Assembly (NCBI RefSeq): GCF_000731095.1 | Contig: NZ_JMTZ01000023.1 | Coordinates: 1 to 48,462 of the forward strand | DNA: 48,462 bases | Source of the DNA: Lysobacter antibioticus | GTDB taxonomy: Bacteria; Pseudomonadota; Gammaproteobacteria; Xanthomonadales; Xanthomonadaceae | Direction: 5' to 3' | In this document: positions 24,045 to 47,462 of the stretch, piece after piece | Layout of the letters: each line of letters begins with the position of its first letter | Numbering within the stretch: the first letter of the stretch is position 1 | The notes under the pieces: model-generated | What the model was told of the DNA's origin: nothing | Seen by the model: only the letters and a program-made list of their open reading frames with translations | The model's database searches: none | Translations under genes and position numbers: made by a program

Positions 24045-24072
24045 TTGCCGTGTAGGAACGCAGTGGTATCTT
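24045..24072 (+). promoter_or_regulatory. Promoter of hslR, nearly leaderless
   Basis: TTGCCG (24045-24050), 16-nt spacer, TATCTT (24067-24072); the ATG follows at 24081. The expected transcription start is at or 1-2 nt before the ATG and no Shine-Dalgarno is present. Confidence 0.5.
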
Positions 24073-24080
24073 TCGCGCCG

Positions 24081-24500
24081 ATGAGCAAGCAAGAGATTCC
24101 TTCGCCACCGCCGCAGGCCTCGGTCCGTCTGGATCTGTGGTTGTGGGCGGCGCGTTTCTTCAAGACCCGCAGCCTGGCGCGGCAGGCGGTCGAGACCGGC
24201 AAGGTCGAGATCGGCGGTCAGCGCGGCAAGGCCTCGCGCGCGCTGCGCGTCGGCGACGCCTTGCGCATCGCGCGGGGCGAGGAAATGTTCGAGGTCGCCG
24301 TGACCAGGCTCAGCGATACGCGCGGGCCGGCAAGCGTCGCCCAGACTCTGTACGCGGAAACCGAAGCCTCGCGCCTTGCCCGCGAGCAGGCACGGGCGAT
24401 GCGCGTGGCCGAACGCAATGGCTATCGCGCGCCGGAGACCAAGCCCGACAAGCGCGCGCGGCGCTTGATCAAAGCCCTGGGCGATATCGACGCTCTGTGA
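24081..24500 (+). CDS. hslR: RNA-binding S4-domain heat shock protein Hsp15 (HslR)
   Basis: 139 residues. An N-terminal S4 domain (RLDLWLWAARFFKTRSLARQAVETGKVEIGG ... LRVGDALRIARG) is followed by a basic tail. The known Hsp15 binds 50S subunits carrying stranded nascent chain and peptidyl-tRNA after heat shock and helps recycle them. ATG 24081 gives MSKQEIPSPPPQ. It is divergent from the MATE gene. Confidence 0.93.
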   Translation: MSKQEIPSPPPQASVRLDLWLWAARFFKTRSLARQAVETGKVEIGGQRGKASRALRVGDALRIARGEEMFEVAVTRLSDTRGPASVAQTLYAETEASRLAREQARAMRVAERNGYRAPETKPDKRARRLIKALGDIDAL

Positions 24501-28272: not shown

Positions 28273-31200
28273 TCAGCCGCCCTGCATGACGTCGAACTCG
28301 CCGCCGAGCACGCGGTCGAGGCGGCCGCTGCGCCAGCCGCGCACGCCGTCGCGGACCAAGGGCGAGGGCGACTCGCGGTAACGCCGGCTGATGCGCCGCT
28401 CGCCTTCGGCCGCGGCCTGGGCGACGCGCGCACGGCCCGGCAGGTCCGGTGCCACCTGCACCGACAACGAGACGCGGCGGGTGACGCCGTCCTCCTGGTC
28501 TTCGAGCACGTGCAGGCCGGACTCGGCCTGCAGCAGGTCGAAGGCGCCGAAACCGCTCACCGCCAGCCAGGCCTTGCAGCGCTCGGCGTCCTGGCGCAGC
28601 ACTTCCACGCGCATGTTGCGGCGCTGCGCCCAGGCCAGGTACATCGCCAGCAGGCGCTGCCACCACAAGCGCAGGTCGGGGCCGTGGCGCAGGTGCGCGG
28701 CTTCGTCGGTATCGATTTCGATCAAGGCATCCTGCGGGCGCTGTTCGCGAACGGCGTCGACCGCCAGGCCGAGCAGGAACAGCAACTGGGCGATGCGGCC
28801 GGCGAATTCGTCGTTGCCGCCGTCCTCGCGCAAACGATGGTGCATGCGATGGGCGGTATCGAGCGCGCTCTCGATGCGGTCGCGACGTTCGATGCGGTCG
28901 AGCACCAGATGGCGGTCGCCGGCGTTCCAGAAATCGGCCTCGGCCATGCGCGCGTAATCGGCTTCGCGCGCCGAGACCCAGTCTTGCGAGGTCACGGTGA
29001 GGTCGAGCTGCTGCAGGCGGGCATCGAGCCGCGCCACCGACGCCGCCGCAGCCGACGGCGCATGCACCAGATCGCGCAGGTCGCCGGCGTCGGCGGGCGC
29101 GGCGACTTCGGCCACGGCGCCGTCGTTGCGCCGCGACGCGTCGGGATCGATGAACTGCACGTCGAGCTGGTCGCCGGCGCTGCGCACGAACAGGAACTGG
29201 TCGCCCTGCGGAGCGCGGTGTTCGACGATGCTGCGCGCCAGGGGGGCGAGCAGGTAGTGCTCGATCGCGCGGCGCAGCGGCCGCGCGCCGAGGTCGGGGG
29301 TGAAGCCGCGGTCGAGCAGGAACTCGATCGCCGAGGGCTCCCATTCCACCGCCCAGTCGCGATTGCGCAGGCCGCGCCGGGTCAGCACGCGCTTGAGCTC
29401 CTTGTGCAGGATCTCGCGCATCAGGCTGCGGTCGAGCGGATTGAACAGCACGATGCGGTCGAGACGGTTGAGGAACTCGCGGCGGAAGGTCTCGAACAGC
29501 GCCTTCTCGACCGCGTCGCGCGAATAACCGCCGCGCGCCGAGGTGAAACCCGGGCCGGCGCTGCGCGAAATGGTCGAGCCGACGTTGCTGGTCAGGATGA
29601 TGATGCTGTGGCGGAAGTCGGCGGTGTGGCCGCTGCGGTCGCTCAGGCGCGCATCGTCGAACACCTGCAGGAACAGGTCCCAGACTTTCGGATGGGCCTT
29701 CTCGAACTCGTCCAGCAACACCACCGAGAACGGCTGCTCGCGGATGCGCGAGGTCAGCGAACGCACGCCGCTCTGGCCGCCTTCGTCGGCGGTCAGGCGC
29801 CAGGCCGAGTCCTCGGACTGGAACTCGCTCATGTCCAGACGAAGGAGGCGTTCGTCGCTGCCGAACAAGAGCTCGCCGAGCGCTTTGGCCAGTTCGGTCT
29901 TGCCGGTGCCGGTGGGGCCGGCGAACAGGAACACGCCGATCGGGCGGCTGCTGTCGATCAGCCCGGCCTTGAGCATGGCGATGCGGTCGAGCAGGGCGTC
30001 GACGGCTTCGTCCTGGCCGATCACGCGCTGACGGAAAAACGCGCGCAGACGGTCGAGGTCGAGGCTCTGGCGGTCGTCGATGACGTCGAGCGGCAGGCCG
30101 CTGCGCTGGGCGATGGTCGCCAGCAGGCGCTCGGCGTCGAGCGGCAAGGCCGGCGGCGTTTCCGCCAGCGCGCTCTGCAGCGCATCGTTGAGCAGGCGCA
30201 GCAGGCGGCCGGGTTCTTGCTGCTCGGGGAAATACTGGGCGGCCATGCGCGCGCCCTCTGCCAGCGCGCGCGGGTCGGCGACCGGGCGACCGAGGCGTTC
30301 GCCTTCCAAACGCGCCCACTCGGCGGCGATCGCCTCCAGCGCATCGGCTTCGGTCGGCAACAGCGGCACGATTTCGACGTGGTGCTTGATGACCGGACGC
30401 GCGATCAGCAACTGCGCCAACTGGCGCGGGGTGATCTCGCCGATCACCCGCAACTGGCCGCGCTCGATTGCCGGCAGCACCAGGTCGAGCAGGCCGCGCG
30501 GGTCGCGCGAGTGCGAGCCCTTGGCGAGCAGGTCGAAGAACTCCGGTGCGCGCCACACCGCGCGCTTGCGGTTGAGCACGCCGAGCATCTCGCGCACCCG
30601 CTCTTCGAGTTCGCCGATATAACTCTGGCCGGACAGGATCTCGGCCGCCGAGGCCTCGAACACCAGCCAACCTTCGGCCTGCAGACGCTCGGCCAACAGG
30701 TCGATCAGCACGGTCTTGCCGACGCCATGTTCGCCGGAGACCAGCACCGAGGCGGCGTCGTCGCCCGACAGCAGTTCGTGCAGGCGTTCGAGTTGGCGGG
30801 CGAGGGCGTCGTGGACGATGCGCGCCTGCGCCTTGGCGCTGGCGTTGACCCGGCCGAAGGCGCCTAGCACGCGGCTTTCGCGGCGCGCATTGGTGGCGTG
30901 TTCGGCCTGCTCGATCAGCGGTTCCAGCAGCGGCGACTGGAAGCGCTTCAGGGTGTCGCGTAACTGCGTCGCGGCGTGCTCCTCCAGTTCCTCCAGCACC
31001 GGCGCGGCCGGCGCCGGCCCGAATTGTTCGGCCCATTGCAGGTAGTCGCGCAGTTGCTGGCGCACCGGGGCGAAGTCCCACCACCACGGCTGGGCATGGC
31101 GCAGCAGCTTGGGCAGCTCGCTGGCGTCGGGGCGGGTGCGCAGGTACTCGACCAGGAAGTGCAGCGGGTAACCGCCGAACTGGCCGACGTGCTCGAACAC

Positions 31201-31623
31201 CGGGTCGAGCGCGACGTCGCTGCGGTGCGGCAGGGCCTTGGTGATCATCGATTGCAGTACGTAGCCGGTGCCGCTGAGCTGGCGCACCAGGTCGGCGGCG
31301 CTGAAGGCTTCGCTCGCGACCAGATCGACGCCTTGGTGGAACTCGGGCAGGGCGAGCAGGTCCTGCGGACGCTGGATGCGTTCGTCGACCGCATCGATGG
31401 AACGGACCAACCGAAGTAATCGATCCTCTGGTGCTTCGGCCGTTTCCGAAGTCGATTCAATCGGTGCTTCGGCTTCGTTTTGGATTTGCTCGACAGCCGG
31501 CGTGTTTTCCGTATCCGCCCGCGGCGTATCCGTCGAGGCAGCGACGATCGCCGCCTGCGGCCGATACAGGCGCGCGAGAATCAGGCCGGCGATCAGGCCG
31601 ACGACGAGTAATAGGGCTTCCAC
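28273..31623 (-). CDS. Membrane-anchored double AAA+ Clp/Hsp100-like protein with a GGQ-less RF2-like C-terminus
   Basis: 1116 residues from GTG 31623 (GGAG 5 nt upstream); ATG 31650 would add nine residues. Numbers below use the longer form. Residues 11-28 are a membrane anchor, followed by an acidic linker. D1: Walker A GEHGVGKT 306-313 and pore-loop-like SYIGELEE, but AVWRAPEFF replaces the Walker B DE pair. D2: Walker A GPTGTGKT 578-585, Walker B VVLLDEFEKAHP 643-654, Arg finger FLNRLD, sensor GARP 788-791; the GYVGY pore loop is missing. Residues ~875-1125 match RF2: EADFWNAGDR, then MYLAWAQRRNMRVEVL, then GAFDLLQAESGLH, then the end YRESPSPLVRDGVRGWRSGRLDRVLGGEFD, like RF2 [22 protein letters not shown]. 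The SPF tripeptide and the GGQ domain 3 are absent. Function unknown; ribosome docking is an inference. Confidence 0.85.
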   Translation of the reverse strand: MEALLLVVGLIAGLILARLYRPQAAIVAASTDTPRADTENTPAVEQIQNEAEAPIESTSETAEAPEDRLLRLVRSIDAVDERIQRPQDLLALPEFHQGVDLVASEAFSAADLVRQLSGTGYVLQSMITKALPHRSDVALDPVFEHVGQFGGYPLHFLVEYLRTRPDASELPKLLRHAQPWWWDFAPVRQQLRDYLQWAEQFGPAPAAPVLEELEEHAATQLRDTLKRFQSPLLEPLIEQAEHATNARRESRVLGAFGRVNASAKAQARIVHDALARQLERLHELLSGDDAASVLVSGEHGVGKTVLIDLLAERLQAEGWLVFEASAAEILSGQSYIGELEERVREMLGVLNRKRAVWRAPEFFDLLAKGSHSRDPRGLLDLVLPAIERGQLRVIGEITPRQLAQLLIARPVIKHHVEIVPLLPTEADALEAIAAEWARLEGERLGRPVADPRALAEGARMAAQYFPEQQEPGRLLRLLNDALQSALAETPPALPLDAERLLATIAQRSGLPLDVIDDRQSLDLDRLRAFFRQRVIGQDEAVDALLDRIAMLKAGLIDSSRPIGVFLFAGPTGTGKTELAKALGELLFGSDERLLRLDMSEFQSEDSAWRLTADEGGQSGVRSLTSRIREQPFSVVLLDEFEKAHPKVWDLFLQVFDDARLSDRSGHTADFRHSIIILTSNVGSTISRSAGPGFTSARGGYSRDAVEKALFETFRREFLNRLDRIVLFNPLDRSLMREILHKELKRVLTRRGLRNRDWAVEWEPSAIEFLLDRGFTPDLGARPLRRAIEHYLLAPLARSIVEHRAPQGDQFLFVRSAGDQLDVQFIDPDASRRNDGAVAEVAAPADAGDLRDLVHAPSAAAASVARLDARLQQLDLTVTSQDWVSAREADYARMAEADFWNAGDRHLVLDRIERRDRIESALDTAHRMHHRLREDGGNDEFAGRIAQLLFLLGLAVDAVREQRPQDALIEIDTDEAAHLRHGPDLRLWWQRLLAMYLAWAQRRNMRVEVLRQDAERCKAWLAVSGFGAFDLLQAESGLHVLEDQEDGVTRRVSLSVQVAPDLPGRARVAQAAAEGERRISRRYRESPSPLVRDGVRGWRSGRLDRVLGGEFDVMQGG

Positions 31624-31734
31624 ATGCGCTCCGGTGTCCGTTCCGGGCATTAGTTTAGCGGTTCGTCCGATAGGGACCGTGCGCTATGACTGTCGGCGGC
31701 GATGCCGTTCGATGCCGCTATCGATCTCTCAGTC

Positions 31735-35382: not shown

Positions 35383-36402
35383 TCACGGTACCTGGCCGAT
35401 GCCCATGCGATCCCAGACCGCCTCCAGCCCGCCCTGGCGATGGCTTTGCATCATGTTGCGCGCATCGCCGGCGTCGAAGCCGGGGTGGTATTCGACGTGC
35501 GGACGGTCGGTAAACCCTTGCCAGTTGCCGCCCCATTCCAGGCCCTGGGCGACGGCGATTTCGCCGTAACGGTCCCAGTTGTTGGTCTCGGCCCAGCTCG
35601 GCCGGCCGTTGGCGTCGTTGAAGACCAGGTCGACCGCGACACCGTAGTTGTGCCAGGACTGGCCGGCGCGCGCGTTGGTGACCCGGTTGCCTGGCGCGGT
35701 GCGGCCCTGCGCGTACAGCGTGTCCTGTTCGGCGAAGGTGCGATAGGCGGTATCCACGCGCATGTTCATGCCTTCGCGGCGCGCCTGCTCGATCACGGCA
35801 GTGACGCGATTGGCGACTTCCTGATTCAGGTTGGGATCGGCGAGGCGGCCGCGCGGATCGGCGGCATGCAGATCGACCAGGGTCCGGGTCTGCGCGCCGA
35901 TTTGTTCGGTCAGTTGCACGCGGGTGCCGATGTTGTCGTAGACGCTGCGCGCGGCGGCTTCGTTGGCGAGCTGGACGGTGCCGTCGTTGCGGATCGTGCC
36001 GACGGTGCGGCCCTCGGCATCGAGCAGATTGCCGTTCTGGATGCCGTAGGTGACGCCGTCCAGGGTCAGGGTGCCGGCGTCGGGCGTCAACGAGGACGGT
36101 GTCGCCTGCGGGTTCAAGCTCACTTCCGCTGCGCCCTGCAGATAGGTCGCGGTCGCCGCGTTCGGCGCGCTCATGAAGGAATTGAGCGATTCGACTTTCT
36201 GTTCTTCGCTGAGCTGGCCGAAATTGCGGTCGGCGACCAACTGGTCGAGCGCGGCGACCGCCTGCGGGTTCTGCGCCAGCTCGGCGCGGATCTCCTCCTC
36301 GCGCTCTTCGCTGATGCTCGGCGTGGCCTGGGCCTGGGCCTGGGTGGCCGAGGCGGTGGATTGCGATTCGCTGCTGTGCGATGCGCCATTGACGCTGTCC
36401 AT
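35383..36402 (-). CDS. M15-type peptidoglycan peptidase without signal peptide
   Basis: 339 residues from ATG 36402 (MDSVNGASHSSESQ); the longer open frame upstream lacks coding character. Residues 1-35 are Ser/Ala/Gln-rich, then a helical acidic part, a middle beta portion (GTLTLDGVTYGIQNGNLLDAEGRTVG) and a C-terminal D-Ala-D-Ala carboxypeptidase/L-Ala-D-Glu endopeptidase domain of the VanY/phage endolysin M15 type. The zinc ligands are likely His251 and Asp258 in SWHNYGVAVDLVF and His302 in DRPHVEYHPG. No Sec signal is visible, so it is either exported by another route (for example a contact-dependent secretion system) or of phage-lysin origin. No secretion genes are nearby. Confidence 0.85.
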   Translation of the reverse strand: MDSVNGASHSSESQSTASATQAQAQATPSISEEREEEIRAELAQNPQAVAALDQLVADRNFGQLSEEQKVESLNSFMSAPNAATATYLQGAAEVSLNPQATPSSLTPDAGTLTLDGVTYGIQNGNLLDAEGRTVGTIRNDGTVQLANEAAARSVYDNIGTRVQLTEQIGAQTRTLVDLHAADPRGRLADPNLNQEVANRVTAVIEQARREGMNMRVDTAYRTFAEQDTLYAQGRTAPGNRVTNARAGQSWHNYGVAVDLVFNDANGRPSWAETNNWDRYGEIAVAQGLEWGGNWQGFTDRPHVEYHPGFDAGDARNMMQSHRQGGLEAVWDRMGIGQVP

Positions 36403-36949
36403 GGGCGTAGTCCTTGTTCGGGGGAACGGCCGGAACTTCGCTGCCTGGGCGAGGTTCCACGGAAGGTTCGCCTGCATTGCACGCCGCATGCATCGCTGTC
36501 GCCACCTGGGATCGACCCTAGCGCCGGCGGACCGATGACGCAGTTTTCGTGCACGGCTGTGCAGTCGCGTTTGCGCATTCCGACACGACGCTGTCGTGCC
36601 CTCGCTTCGCGAACGCGCGAACGTTCGTTCGTTTTTAAGCCGCGAACCACGATGCGACGCGCTTCTGCGCTTTTGCTTGCGTTTGCCTACACAAAGGTGT
36701 TGCATCGCCGCATGACGTTCGTTAACAGCGTGCTAATTTCCGCACGCCGATTCGATCCACGCCTTACAGACTCAGGCTGCAATCGCTCACGGATTACGTA
36801 TCGAACAAGGATGTGATCCGCGCAGGGGACGGCGCGGTATCGCAGACACGGGTCGGACCCCCGGACGCATGCCTTCATCTTGCGCACCCGCCGCACCGGA
36901 CATCGAAGTCCAGCACGTCCCGAACGTTTTCAAACTTGGGGGAAACCAG
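36403..36949. other. Divergent intergenic region before the TonB receptor
   Basis: About 547 nt without a credible gene. It holds the promoters of the M15-type gene (minus) and the TonB receptor (plus). A candidate for the latter is TTGCAT (36700-36705), 17-nt spacer, TAACAG (36723-36728), giving a ~215-nt leader. A short dyad GCGCGAACGTTCGTTCG lies near 36614-36630. No Fur-like box was recognised. Confidence 0.4.
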
Positions 36950-39478
36950 ATGATCGCTCGTCAGCCGGGTCGCAAGTCCTTGTCTTTGGCCATCGCCTTA
37001 TCAGTGGCGTCGCTCGCCGCGACCGCACAGGCGCAACAAACCGGTGCTGCCCCCGCCGAAGAGGAGGCCACGACCTTGGCCGGCCTCACCGTGACCGCGC
37101 AAAAGCGCGAGGAGGCCATGCAGGACGTGCCGATCTCGATCACCGCCTTGCCCGAGCAGTTACTGCAGGACACCGGCGTGCGCGACGTCAAGGACCTGCA
37201 GGTGCTGGTGCCCGGCCTGACCGTGAGCAGCACCCAGAGCGAAGTGCAGACGGTGGCGCGCATCCGCGGCATCGGCACGGTCGGCGACAACGCCGGCCTG
37301 GAGTCCTCGGTCGGCGTGGTCATCGACGGCGTCTACCGCCCGCGCAACGGCGTCGGCTTCGGCGACCTCGGCGAGATCGAGCGTATCGAAGTGCTGAAGG
37401 GCCCGCAGGGCACGGTGTTCGGCAAGAACACCTCGGCCGGCGTCATCAACGTCATCACCCGCCGGCCGAGCTACGACACCACGGTCGAGGGCGAGCTGAC
37501 CATCGGCAACTACGGCGCGGTCGGTCTGGCCGGCTCGTTCAATACCGCGATCGGCGAGAACGCCGCCTTCCGCGTCTACGCCGGCAAGCGCAAGCGCGAC
37601 GGTTTCACCGACGTCGAGATCGGCCGCGGCCCGCGCGGCGAGCGCGAGGACGGCGACCAGAACTTCCACACTTTGCGCGGTCAGCTGCTGTTGGAGCCGA
37701 CCGAGAACCTCGACATCAACTTCATCGCCGACTACAGCAGCCGCGAAGAGAACTGCTGCGTCGGCCTGACCACGGTGCGTGGCCCGACCTCGGCGATCAT
37801 CAATGCGCTGGTCGGCGGCACCGGCGTCGCGCCGGTCGCCGATCCGTTCGCGCGCGTGGCCTGGAGCAATCGCCCGACCACCCAGGACATCAAGGACAAG
37901 GGCATCTCGGCCGAGGTCAACTGGATTACGCCCTGGTTCGGTGGCGCCACCCTGACCTCGATCACCGCCTCGCGCGACTGGCAGGCCATGAACGGCCTGG
38001 ATTTCGATTTCACCACCGCCGACCTGATCTACCGCAATCCGGATCCGGACGAATCCTTCACCGGCTTCAAACAGTTCAGCCAGGAGTTCCGCCTGACCGG
38101 CGCGACCGACAAGCTCGACTGGATGTTCGGCTTGTTCTATGCCGACGAAGACCTCAAGCGCAACGATTCCTACAGCCTCGGCGCGCACTACGAGCCGTAT
38201 CTGTCGACCGCGGTGCTGAGCCAGATCGCCGCGCGCTTCCCGGCCGGGCTGATCAACACCGCCAATGCCGCGACCTTCTTGTCGCAGGCTTCGGGCCGCC
38301 CGTTCGGCAGCAGTTTCGGCGGGCTCGGTGCGCTCGACCGCTACCAGCAGAACAGCAAGAGCGTGGCCTTGTTCACCAATAACACCTGGCATGCGACCGA
38401 CGCCCTCGATATCACCTTGGGCCTGCGCTACACCAAGGAGAACAAGGAACTCGACTCGGTCTACAGCAATCCCAACGGCGGCCTCGGTTGCGGCGCGGCG
38501 CTGGCCAACCCGACCCGGGTCGGCGCGGCCCTGGCCGCACGCGGCGTGCCGGCCGCGGCGCGCGCGGCGCTGGTCCAGCAGGTGGTCGGCTTCATGTGCC
38601 TGCCGTGGGCCAACACCCTGCACAACGGCCGGGTGACCAACCAGGAACGCGACGAGAAGGAATGGTCGGGCACGATCAAGGCGGCCTACCGCTGGAACGA
38701 GCACGTCATGGGCTACGCCTCGGCCGCGCGCGGCTACAAGGCCGGCGGCTTCAACCTCGACCGAGTGCAGTCCTCCAACGGCCTGTCCTCGGGCACCGCC
38801 GGCATCGCCCCGGTCAACGACACCTCGTTCCCGGGCGAGTTCGTCGACAGCTACGAGCTCGGCGCCAAGACCACCTGGGCCGACGGCAATCTGCTGCTCA
38901 ATGCGACCTTGTTCCACCAGACCTACACCGACTTCCAGCTCAACAGCTTCCTCGGCACCAGCTTCGTGGTGCGGTCGATCCCGGAGGTGGTGTCGCAGGG
39001 CATCGACACCGAGATCCTGTGGCAGACCGGGCTCAAGGGCCTGATGCTGCAGGGCGGTTTGATGTACGCCGACACCAAGTACGGCAACGACCCGCTGCCC
39101 GACGCCGACCTGGCCAAGTTGCCCGGCGCGCGGGCGAGCTTCGCGCCGCTGTGGTCGGCCTCGGCTTCGGCGACCTACCAGTGGGACTTCGGCGCCTCGC
39201 TGGTCGGTCGCTTCAACATCGGCGCCAAGTACTCGTCCGACTACAACACCGGTTCCGACCTCGACCCGGAGAAGGGCCAGGAGGCCTACACCGTGGTCAA
39301 TGCGCGCCTGGGCATCGGCGCCAAGAACCGGCGCTGGATGGTCGAAGCCTGGGCCATGAACCTCACCGACGAGGAGTACAAGCAGGTCGGCTTCGACGCC
39401 CCGTTGCAGACCGGTTCCTGGAACGCCTTCCTCGGTGCCCCGCGCACCTACGGGGTGACTTTGCGGGTCATGTACTGA
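36950..39478 (+). CDS. TonB-dependent outer-membrane receptor
   Basis: 842 residues. Signal peptide with cleavage after AQA (about residue 28), TonB-box-like TLAGLTVTAQKREE, plug domain (DVPISITALPEQLLQDTGV ... RIRGIGT ... VIDGVYRPRNGVGFGDLGEIERIEVLKGPQGTVFGKNTSAGVINVITRRP) and a long beta-barrel ending in TLRVMY with a C-terminal aromatic. It belongs to the large Xanthomonadaceae/sphingomonad receptor group that imports siderophores, glycans or other nutrients; the substrate cannot be read from the sequence. A strong GGGGGA site precedes ATG 36950. No TonB, regulator or degradative gene is adjacent. Confidence 0.95.
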   Translation: MIARQPGRKSLSLAIALSVASLAATAQAQQTGAAPAEEEATTLAGLTVTAQKREEAMQDVPISITALPEQLLQDTGVRDVKDLQVLVPGLTVSSTQSEVQTVARIRGIGTVGDNAGLESSVGVVIDGVYRPRNGVGFGDLGEIERIEVLKGPQGTVFGKNTSAGVINVITRRPSYDTTVEGELTIGNYGAVGLAGSFNTAIGENAAFRVYAGKRKRDGFTDVEIGRGPRGEREDGDQNFHTLRGQLLLEPTENLDINFIADYSSREENCCVGLTTVRGPTSAIINALVGGTGVAPVADPFARVAWSNRPTTQDIKDKGISAEVNWITPWFGGATLTSITASRDWQAMNGLDFDFTTADLIYRNPDPDESFTGFKQFSQEFRLTGATDKLDWMFGLFYADEDLKRNDSYSLGAHYEPYLSTAVLSQIAARFPAGLINTANAATFLSQASGRPFGSSFGGLGALDRYQQNSKSVALFTNNTWHATDALDITLGLRYTKENKELDSVYSNPNGGLGCGAALANPTRVGAALAARGVPAAARAALVQQVVGFMCLPWANTLHNGRVTNQERDEKEWSGTIKAAYRWNEHVMGYASAARGYKAGGFNLDRVQSSNGLSSGTAGIAPVNDTSFPGEFVDSYELGAKTTWADGNLLLNATLFHQTYTDFQLNSFLGTSFVVRSIPEVVSQGIDTEILWQTGLKGLMLQGGLMYADTKYGNDPLPDADLAKLPGARASFAPLWSASASATYQWDFGASLVGRFNIGAKYSSDYNTGSDLDPEKGQEAYTVVNARLGIGAKNRRWMVEAWAMNLTDEEYKQVGFDAPLQTGSWNAFLGAPRTYGVTLRVMY

Positions 39479-44664: not shown

Positions 44665-44828
44665 ACGGTCGGACATATTTGCCGTACGGCCTTGCACATA
44701 AGGCCCCCGGGCCTGTTAGGCTACGCGGCTTTCGGGTCCCGGGTTGCCTGTTCCAGTCGATGCCTCCATCGTGGTGGCATGGGTTCGGTCGAGCGGCACC
44801 GCTCCCGACCAGGCAAATAATCCCAGGC

Positions 44829-47462
<2,634 letters not shown>

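Follow-up and report, generated by a model that had tools for sequence, protein, structure and literature searches.

An Hsp100-type AAA+ protein of Lysobacter antibioticus with a C-terminal domain derived from release factor 2 and devoid of the GGQ domain

The window analyzed in this work is a stretch of 48,462 nucleotides from Lysobacter antibioticus (NCBI RefSeq assembly GCF_000731095.1, contig NZ_JMTZ01000023.1, positions 1 to 48,462), and the gene under study lies on its minus strand and encodes a fusion of an Hsp100-type AAA+ motor with a C-terminal domain derived from release factor 2 (RF2). The open reading frame (ORF) occupies positions 28273..31650, with an ATG at 31650, and codes for 1125 amino acid residues (aa). 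An alternative GTG start at 31623 (product VEALLLVVG..., 1116 aa) is likelier because it aligns with the starts of the homologues, and the start at 31623 given in an earlier annotation made from the letters alone (in the following, the sequence-only reading) fits better than the ATG. When two short C-terminal motifs were compared with 84,980 species genomes, 72 loci were obtained, a lower bound as the motifs are narrow. Counts over 70 members refer to alignment A3, which consists of 69 loci and the Lysobacter protein and leaves out L101 (a near-copy of L100), L121 (split C-terminal match) and L122 (too short). Counts over 60 members refer to alignment A4 (59 loci and the Lysobacter protein), from which L066, L068, L074, L083, L084, L096, L098, L099, L103 and L110 were also omitted for split, partial or broken matches. 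The features of the gene, all on the minus strand, are as follows.

28273..31650 (-): complete gene, starting at ATG 31650 or, likelier, GTG 31623; stop at 28273-28275
31567..31620 (-): N-terminal helix predicted as membrane anchor (1116-aa form, residues 2-19), from hydropathy and model
30856..31431 (-): all-helical HEAT-like N-terminal domain, approximate limits, from model helices 65-256 and a profile match
30136..30801 (-): first AAA module (AAA1 or D1), approximate limits, from the NCBIfam ClpA model (from residue 284) and motif tallies
30712..30735 (-): D1 Walker A, GEHGVGKT; Lys in 56/60 members
30604..30630 (-): D1 pore loop, GQSYIGELE; Tyr or Phe in 57/60
30544..30546 (-): Pro replacing the Walker B Asp of D1; Pro in 51/60, Asp in 1/60
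29437..30135 (-): second AAA module (AAA2 or D2), approximate limits, canonical ATPase motifs; PF07724, E=7.9e-42
29755..29793 (-): shortened D2 loop at the place of the ClpA/ClpB GYVG pore loop; GYVG in 0/60
29545..29553 (-): PGF tripeptide in the D2 loop at the place of the ClpA/ClpC IGF/LGF loop; xGF in 59/60
29197..29436 (-): D2 small (lid) domain, ClpB_D2-small; PF10431, E=3.8e-16
28738..29049 (-): helical bundle like RF2 domain 1, residues 12-115 of the C-terminal model; W...R motif aligned to RF2
28447..28734 (-): core part like RF2 domain 2, GGxEA tip and SPF loop absent; PCRF match at 28507-28683
28393..28446 (-): short linker instead of domain 3, the GGQ domain; GLH-to-RRY spacing of 42 residues
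28285..28392 (-): end like RF2 domain 4, RRYRESPSPLVRDGVRGWRSGRLDRVLGGEFD; from column counts, conserved stretches and structural alignment to RF2 residue 359

The C-terminal domain is derived from release factor 2 and lacks domain 3

The sequence-only reading had stated that the last ~250 residues follow RF2 in order, and comparison with release factors (RFs) by profile and by structure bears this out. Pfam PCRF matched residues 990-1048 with E=3e-7 and 30.9 bits, above the curated cut-off of 24, and was detected in 69 of the 70 family members. With a profile of 10 homologues, RF2 was the top match in the PDB (1.8e-11), E. coli RF2 was obtained at about 4e-10 and RF1 at 2e-4. The W...R motif of domain 1, eadfWsradR in the family profile, was aligned to qpdVWnepeR of RF2, as were the MYLxWAexR block and the E-G-H block. 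For the last block, VRDGVRGWRSGRLDRVLGGEFD, the correspondence to RF domain 4 proposed earlier is weak by sequence (about 4 bits), and the profile-profile alignment ends before it; it holds by structure, the structural alignment of the model extending to RF2 residue 359 and so including the domain-4 end. In the L. antibioticus genome, the family profile found three places at E<=10, namely the fusion gene, RF2 (4e-13) and RF1 (6e-8). At the same threshold it matched 18 of 20 real RFs and none of 20 reversed or 400 shuffled RF sequences. Although identity to RF2 is low (14-18% in the Foldseek RF2 rows and about 18-22% for full-length RF2 by VIA-align), a chance likeness or a different fold can be set aside with near certainty because of the curated Pfam threshold, the PDB profiles, the structure and the clean controls.

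In a tree of 20 members and 20 RFs over 250 columns, in which RF1 and RF2 rows were told apart by motif, the split between RF1 and RF2 received 100/100 support, with the family on the side of RF2. The branch of the family is long (2.0) and its placement inside RF2 is unsupported, so that beyond 'RF2 side' the evidence of the tree is weak.

The absence of the GGQ domain and of the SPF tripeptide, both reported in the sequence-only reading, was found throughout the family. From the His of GLH to RxY, counted by alignment column, 33-59 residues are present in 70/70 members and 42 in the Lysobacter protein, compared to 125 in twelve of 13 RFs and 144 in the thirteenth; the spacing had been found by pattern in 68/70 members (33-69) before all 70 were recounted by column. 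PF00472, the GGQ domain, gave no match at the fusion locus in any of 15 genomes searched. The loop after GLH contains SPF in 0/70 members and PxT in three (L073, L078 and L083), not including the Lysobacter protein, whereas SPF or PxT occurs there in 20/20 RFs. The GGxEA/S tip is present in 1/70 members versus 17/20 RFs. The letters 'GGQ' occur in L103 and 'SPF' in L091, but at other places of the domain.

Some members carry signs against a clean loss. The PxT strings (PCT, PET and PQT) are found within 16 residues downstream of GLH, at the site of the codon-reading tripeptide of RF1, and are relics or chance. Also, in the alphaproteobacterial member L098 (L098:7998-8816) DGGAEAVQW stands where RFs have GGxEA; this may be a relic, or else chance, and is a possible intermediate in the decay of codon reading.

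The domain-4 end is conserved as RRYxExPSPLVRDxVRGWRTGRLDRVLxGDFD, is rich in Arg and supplied the stretches selected by the search tool for their highest conservation. Of the attributes of a class I RF, the fusion protein thus has PCRF and the fold of domains 1, 2 and 4 and is devoid of the GGQ domain, the stop-codon tripeptide and the GGxEA tip. The C-terminal domain is composed of RF2 domains 1, 2 and 4; domain 3 has been removed, and the elements for codon reading have decayed. It shares these three domains, by profile and model, and the RF2 side of the tree with RF2 (prfB), and differs from it in lacking the GGQ domain in 70/70 members, in lacking the SPF loop and in being fused behind an AAA+ motor.

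The AAA+ motor and the N-terminal region

Pfam analysis of the fusion protein revealed AAA_2, ClpB_D2-small and PCRF. Together with the D2 motifs, the E-values of the first two (7.9e-42 and 3.8e-16) substantiate the earlier assignment as an Hsp100-like AAA+ protein; the two AAA modules, the Walker A and B motifs, Arg finger and sensor 2 of D2 that define Hsp100 proteins are all present. Matches to the NCBIfam Hsp100 and prfB models were all below their own cut-offs (ClpB, for example, reached 286.3 of 1232.1 bits), and among the best 25 of 56 matches no curated NCBIfam family covered the fusion protein. PADLOC matches were confined to the AAA regions (best DolB, 1.8e-29, residues 532-692), and phrog_4871, 'ATP-dependent protease', spans residues 202-832.

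The two modules have diverged in different ways, as seen when aligned with ClpA and ClpB of the same genome. In D1, the Lys of Walker A and the aromatic residue of the pore loop are present in nearly all members (see the list above), whereas Pro mostly stands for the Walker B Asp that both same-genome proteins have; the next position is Glu in 12/60 and Asp in 29/60, and an Arg-finger pattern was found in 9/60. Judged by motifs, D1 therefore does not have the Walker B Asp-Glu and Arg finger of a working ATPase. In D2, by contrast, LLDE, the Arg finger NR and the sensor-2 GAR are each present in 60/60, and the GYVG pore loop is lost; its place is 1-5 residues shorter than in the same-genome ClpA/ClpB and has any aromatic residue in the loop core in only 4/60. 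ATP hydrolysis is thus expected in D2, where the ATPase motifs are kept and GYVG is lost, and substrate contact, if any, would be made by D1, which keeps its pore residue. A coiled-coil M-domain as in ClpB/Hsp104 was not seen, as no helix longer than 19 residues occurs between model positions 420 and 515. The curated ClpB equivalog score was not reached either. In summary of the comparison with ClpB, ClpA and ClpC, the family shares two AAA modules, the D2-small domain and canonical D2 ATPase motifs with them, but it scores far below all matched NCBIfam Hsp100 cut-offs, has lost the D1 Walker B and the D2 GYVG and possesses a HEAT-like N-domain and an RF2-like C-domain.

The protein had been called membrane-anchored, which agrees with a hydrophobic stretch at its N-terminus (hydropathy 2.59 over 17 residues, directly followed by Arg) and with a model helix at residues 2-19. 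A stretch of >=1.6, as a rule followed by net positive charge, is found in 45/60 aligned members, a count in which some rows begin inside the ORF by choice of start; members from Krumholzibacteriota seem to be without such a helix. From the positive-inside rule, an N-out, C-in orientation is predicted, pointing to a cytoplasmic protein held at the membrane.

The N-domain that follows is all-helical in the model (helices 65-256), and its profile (A6) matched Alpha-Rep4, a designed HEAT-like repeat protein, at 1.8e-6. Pfam matches were weak and scattered (best 0.0011 for Lysobacter; HEAT_2 in 2/43 members). When relatives devoid of the RF-like part were looked for, the N-domain profile gave one copy per genome in 8/8 genomes, and two weak extra matches (20 and 23 bits) were obtained in the class-wide genome search.

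Distribution, inheritance and genomic context

Members were found in the genera Lysobacter, Luteimonas, Xanthomonas, Pseudoxanthomonas, Tahibacter, Rudaea, Woeseia, Labrys and Solirubrobacter and, according to title or tree labels, in metagenome bins of Acidobacteriota, Planctomycetota, Krumholzibacteriota, Calditrichota, Myxococcota, Thermodesulfobacteriota and Eiseniibacteriota. AAA sequence precedes the C-terminal domain in 70 of 71 ORFs, the exception (L068) beginning at a contig end; a stand-alone RF-like domain was therefore rejected. The architecture is kept across phyla at a mean column identity of 43% over 60 members, and the family is thus under selection. It is a distinct chromosomal Hsp100-type AAA+ family with an RF2-derived C-terminal domain.

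In the order to which the window belongs, 10 of 200 genomes carry the fusion, its own included; the hits in 55 further matching genomes were ORFs of 235-428 residues, and the 20 that were opened, as well as RF1 and RF2 of L. antibioticus itself, hold GGQ. Two of 369 genomes of the class, again including its own, and two of 149 genomes of the phylum of L113 (strong matches, one from the genome of L113) possess it, counts that may miss members as at most 19 and 7 candidates per genome, respectively, were scored. A tree of 60 full-length members, built by a quick method and weak at its deepest forks, clusters by phylum label with 11 label changes (minimum 8, average of shuffles 24.7), which suggests an old family that was mostly inherited, with some transfers or mis-binned contigs. 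One contig labelled Gammaproteobacteria (L104) has its fusion inside the Krumholzibacteriota clade, on very short branches beside L108, and is either mis-binned or the result of a recent transfer. A weak PCRF match (22.3 bits, below the cut-off) was noted at G204:C20:10296-10490 (L158), with a stop inside the 682-aa frame.

Relatives of the fusion were absent from 50,697 phage records and 72,556 plasmid records, and none of 98 stretches of viral contigs that matched a motif encoded one, so a mobile or phage origin was rejected. Of 15 genomes with the fusion, 14 have two full-length GGQ factors and the fifteenth has one; as the ordinary release factors are retained, the fusion provides an added function. 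The fifteenth, the acidobacterial genome of L113 (G200), contains, apart from the fusion, a single full match to PCRF and a single full GGQ factor; its other release factor was not seen, perhaps because the bin is incomplete or RF2 is frameshifted. A link with the loss of RF3 was also discarded, since RF3_C scored above its cut-off in 11 of the 15.

Upstream of the fusion gene lies mutS, and downstream are katG, then a DUF937 gene, a gene for an Hsp15-like S4 protein on the other strand and one for a MATE transporter. Direct comparison of 71 loci with the genes of the window showed mutS upstream or near-upstream in 16 and katG downstream in 15; these loci all belong to the set L051-L065 plus L081, from Lysobacter, Xanthomonas, Pseudoxanthomonas, Luteimonas and bins of their order. 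With crude gene calls and clustering, no neighbour cluster occurred in more than five of the other loci, those found being lineage-bound, and nothing recurred across phyla; the neighbourhood was therefore dropped as a guide to function. The S4-domain protein (24045-24500, +), about 3.8 kb downstream of the fusion gene, matches the ribosome-associated Hsp15 with 89 bits, below the cut-off of 148. It has a relative nearby in 13/71 loci, within the wider group of the window, and is probably plain synteny.

Possible functions and other genes of the window

Of the sequence-only interpretation, the Hsp100-like AAA+ protein with an anchor helix and a fused RF2-shaped module without GGQ or reading loops stands by sequence and model, whereas docking to ribosomes and a role for stalled ribosomes or membrane-bound translation are still to be taken as proposals. 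We tentatively prefer, without holding it to be probable, that the stripped RF2-derived domain is a C-terminal docking module of the Hsp100 motor with the A site or stalk base of the ribosome as the most economical target; the motor may act on ribosomes or on a different partner able to recognise the shape of RF2. Hsp100 proteins assemble into rings with the C-terminal domain on the exit face, and domains 1, 2 and 4 of RF2 contact the ribosome, the remaining body touching the stalk base and the decoding region. These contacts and the precedent of Balon are the reasons for favouring the ribosome. According to PMC10901736, Balon is a release-factor relative that has neither GGQ nor a codon-reading motif and binds in the A site independently of mRNA; in contrast to the present family, it belongs to the aeRF1/Pelota family with an unrelated fold, works with EF-Tu and has no motor part, so the likeness is one of logic only.

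In such a mechanism, the fusion protein would form a ring like other Hsp100 proteins and be attached to the inside of the cytoplasmic membrane. D2 would burn ATP, D1 would grip or only assemble, and the RF2-like modules on the exit face would bring the ring to its target. The ribosomal A site or stalk base would be entered independently of the codon, as Balon does, and the motor might then act on a stalled or idle ribosome, or on a factor bound to it, by remodelling or stripping. Retention of the RF2 body (domains 1, 2 and 4) while domain 3 and the reading loops were lost, as judged from sequence and model, is consistent with docking, and so would be the conserved Arg-rich end and the D2 ATPase motifs in 60/60.

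Several points weigh against docking at the ribosome. The parts that were lost are the main known ribosome contacts of RFs, and the missing D2 pore loop argues against ordinary threading. The predicted anchor helix appears in 45/60 aligned members only, no translation gene recurs near the fusion across phyla, and with its patchy occurrence the protein is no general rescue factor. The net charge of the C-terminal domain (median -2 in 70 members and -5 in Lysobacter, versus -12 to -23 in four RFs) is near neutral and speaks neither way.

It is a serious possibility, although we would not call it probable either, that exaptation has turned the RF2 fold into an adaptor or ring-assembly domain which binds a protein substrate or partner at the membrane and has no link to translation left. 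Nearly the whole family has lost the elements for codon reading and catalysis, many invariant positions are, by eye, those common with RFs and would thus reflect the fold, no translation neighbour is common across phyla, and a HEAT-like N-domain is a typical protein-binding scaffold. However, domains 1, 2 and 4 stayed RF2-like across phyla, which a pure scaffold might not need, and the Arg-rich tail is conserved.

A role as a Clp-type protease partner, in which the ring would feed ClpP and the RF2-like module would select substrates bound to ribosomes or RFs, seems improbable. The IGF/LGF loop is the ClpP-docking motif of ClpA/ClpC, and at its place nearly all members have xGF (59/60; [ILVM]GF in 38, PGF in 20), in a loop of low confidence in the model (pLDDT, the predicted local distance difference test, <50 at residues 689-698); also, the first structural matches of the whole-protein model were mostly ClpC chains, many from ClpCP complexes. 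But the Lysobacter protein and 19 others have PGF and not I/LGF, GW occupies the aligned position in a ClpB whose structure is known (4lj7), so that GF may be structural, the GYVG loop for threading is absent, and the C-terminal domain should hang where ClpP would dock.

We likewise give little credence to a hibernation or protection factor whose module would plug the A site of idle ribosomes and tether them to the membrane until ATP hydrolysis releases them. The anatomy would follow the same logic as that described for Balon in PMC10901736, without GGQ and codon-reading motif, and the anchor helix in 45/60 would suit a tether, but a many-armed motor is a costly plug and the family is rare.

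Going further with docking at the ribosome, the family could be the first AAA+ ring motor with its own release-factor-derived module for ribosome entry, a membrane-held Hsp100 in which D1 grips and D2 burns ATP, which engages the A site or stalk base independently of the codon and remodels or extracts, and could represent an old, overlooked branch of bacterial ribosome quality control; we consider this stronger version rather unlikely. Release factors are regarded as single-purpose proteins with few GGQ-bearing paralogues. The existence, in many phyla, of a branch that lost the catalytic domain and is fixed to an Hsp100 motor would demonstrate that the body of an RF has a use of its own, and raises the question of whether an AAA+ machine docks in the A site of the bacterial ribosome. 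If it does not, the family would still exemplify a novel use of the RF2 fold, in an Hsp100 protein that is unusual for having ATPase and grip split between two rings.

Among the matches listed from the open-access full-text literature, no AAA+/RF2-like fusion was seen in titles or the beginnings of abstracts. Burroughs and Aravind (2019; PMC6514570) describe RF1/RF2, ArfB and PrfH with the catalytic domain, and the words 'Clp' and 'PCRF' do not occur in the main text of their paper; a survey keyed on the catalytic domain would miss the fusion family. PrfH/RFH and ArfB are likewise RF-derived bacterial factors, PrfH keeping a version of the codon domain, but both retain a catalytic GGQ-type domain, and section 2.4 of that paper mentions no AAA+ fusion.

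Elsewhere in the window, an alanyl-tRNA synthetase gene occupies 44679-47462 (+). On the opposite strand, the ORF at 44721-47333 gave no match to Pfam at 1e-5 and resembles a high-GC shadow frame. A D-alanyl-D-alanine carboxypeptidase (VanY/M15-like) is encoded at 35383-36705 (-) and a TonB-dependent receptor at 36869-39478 (+).

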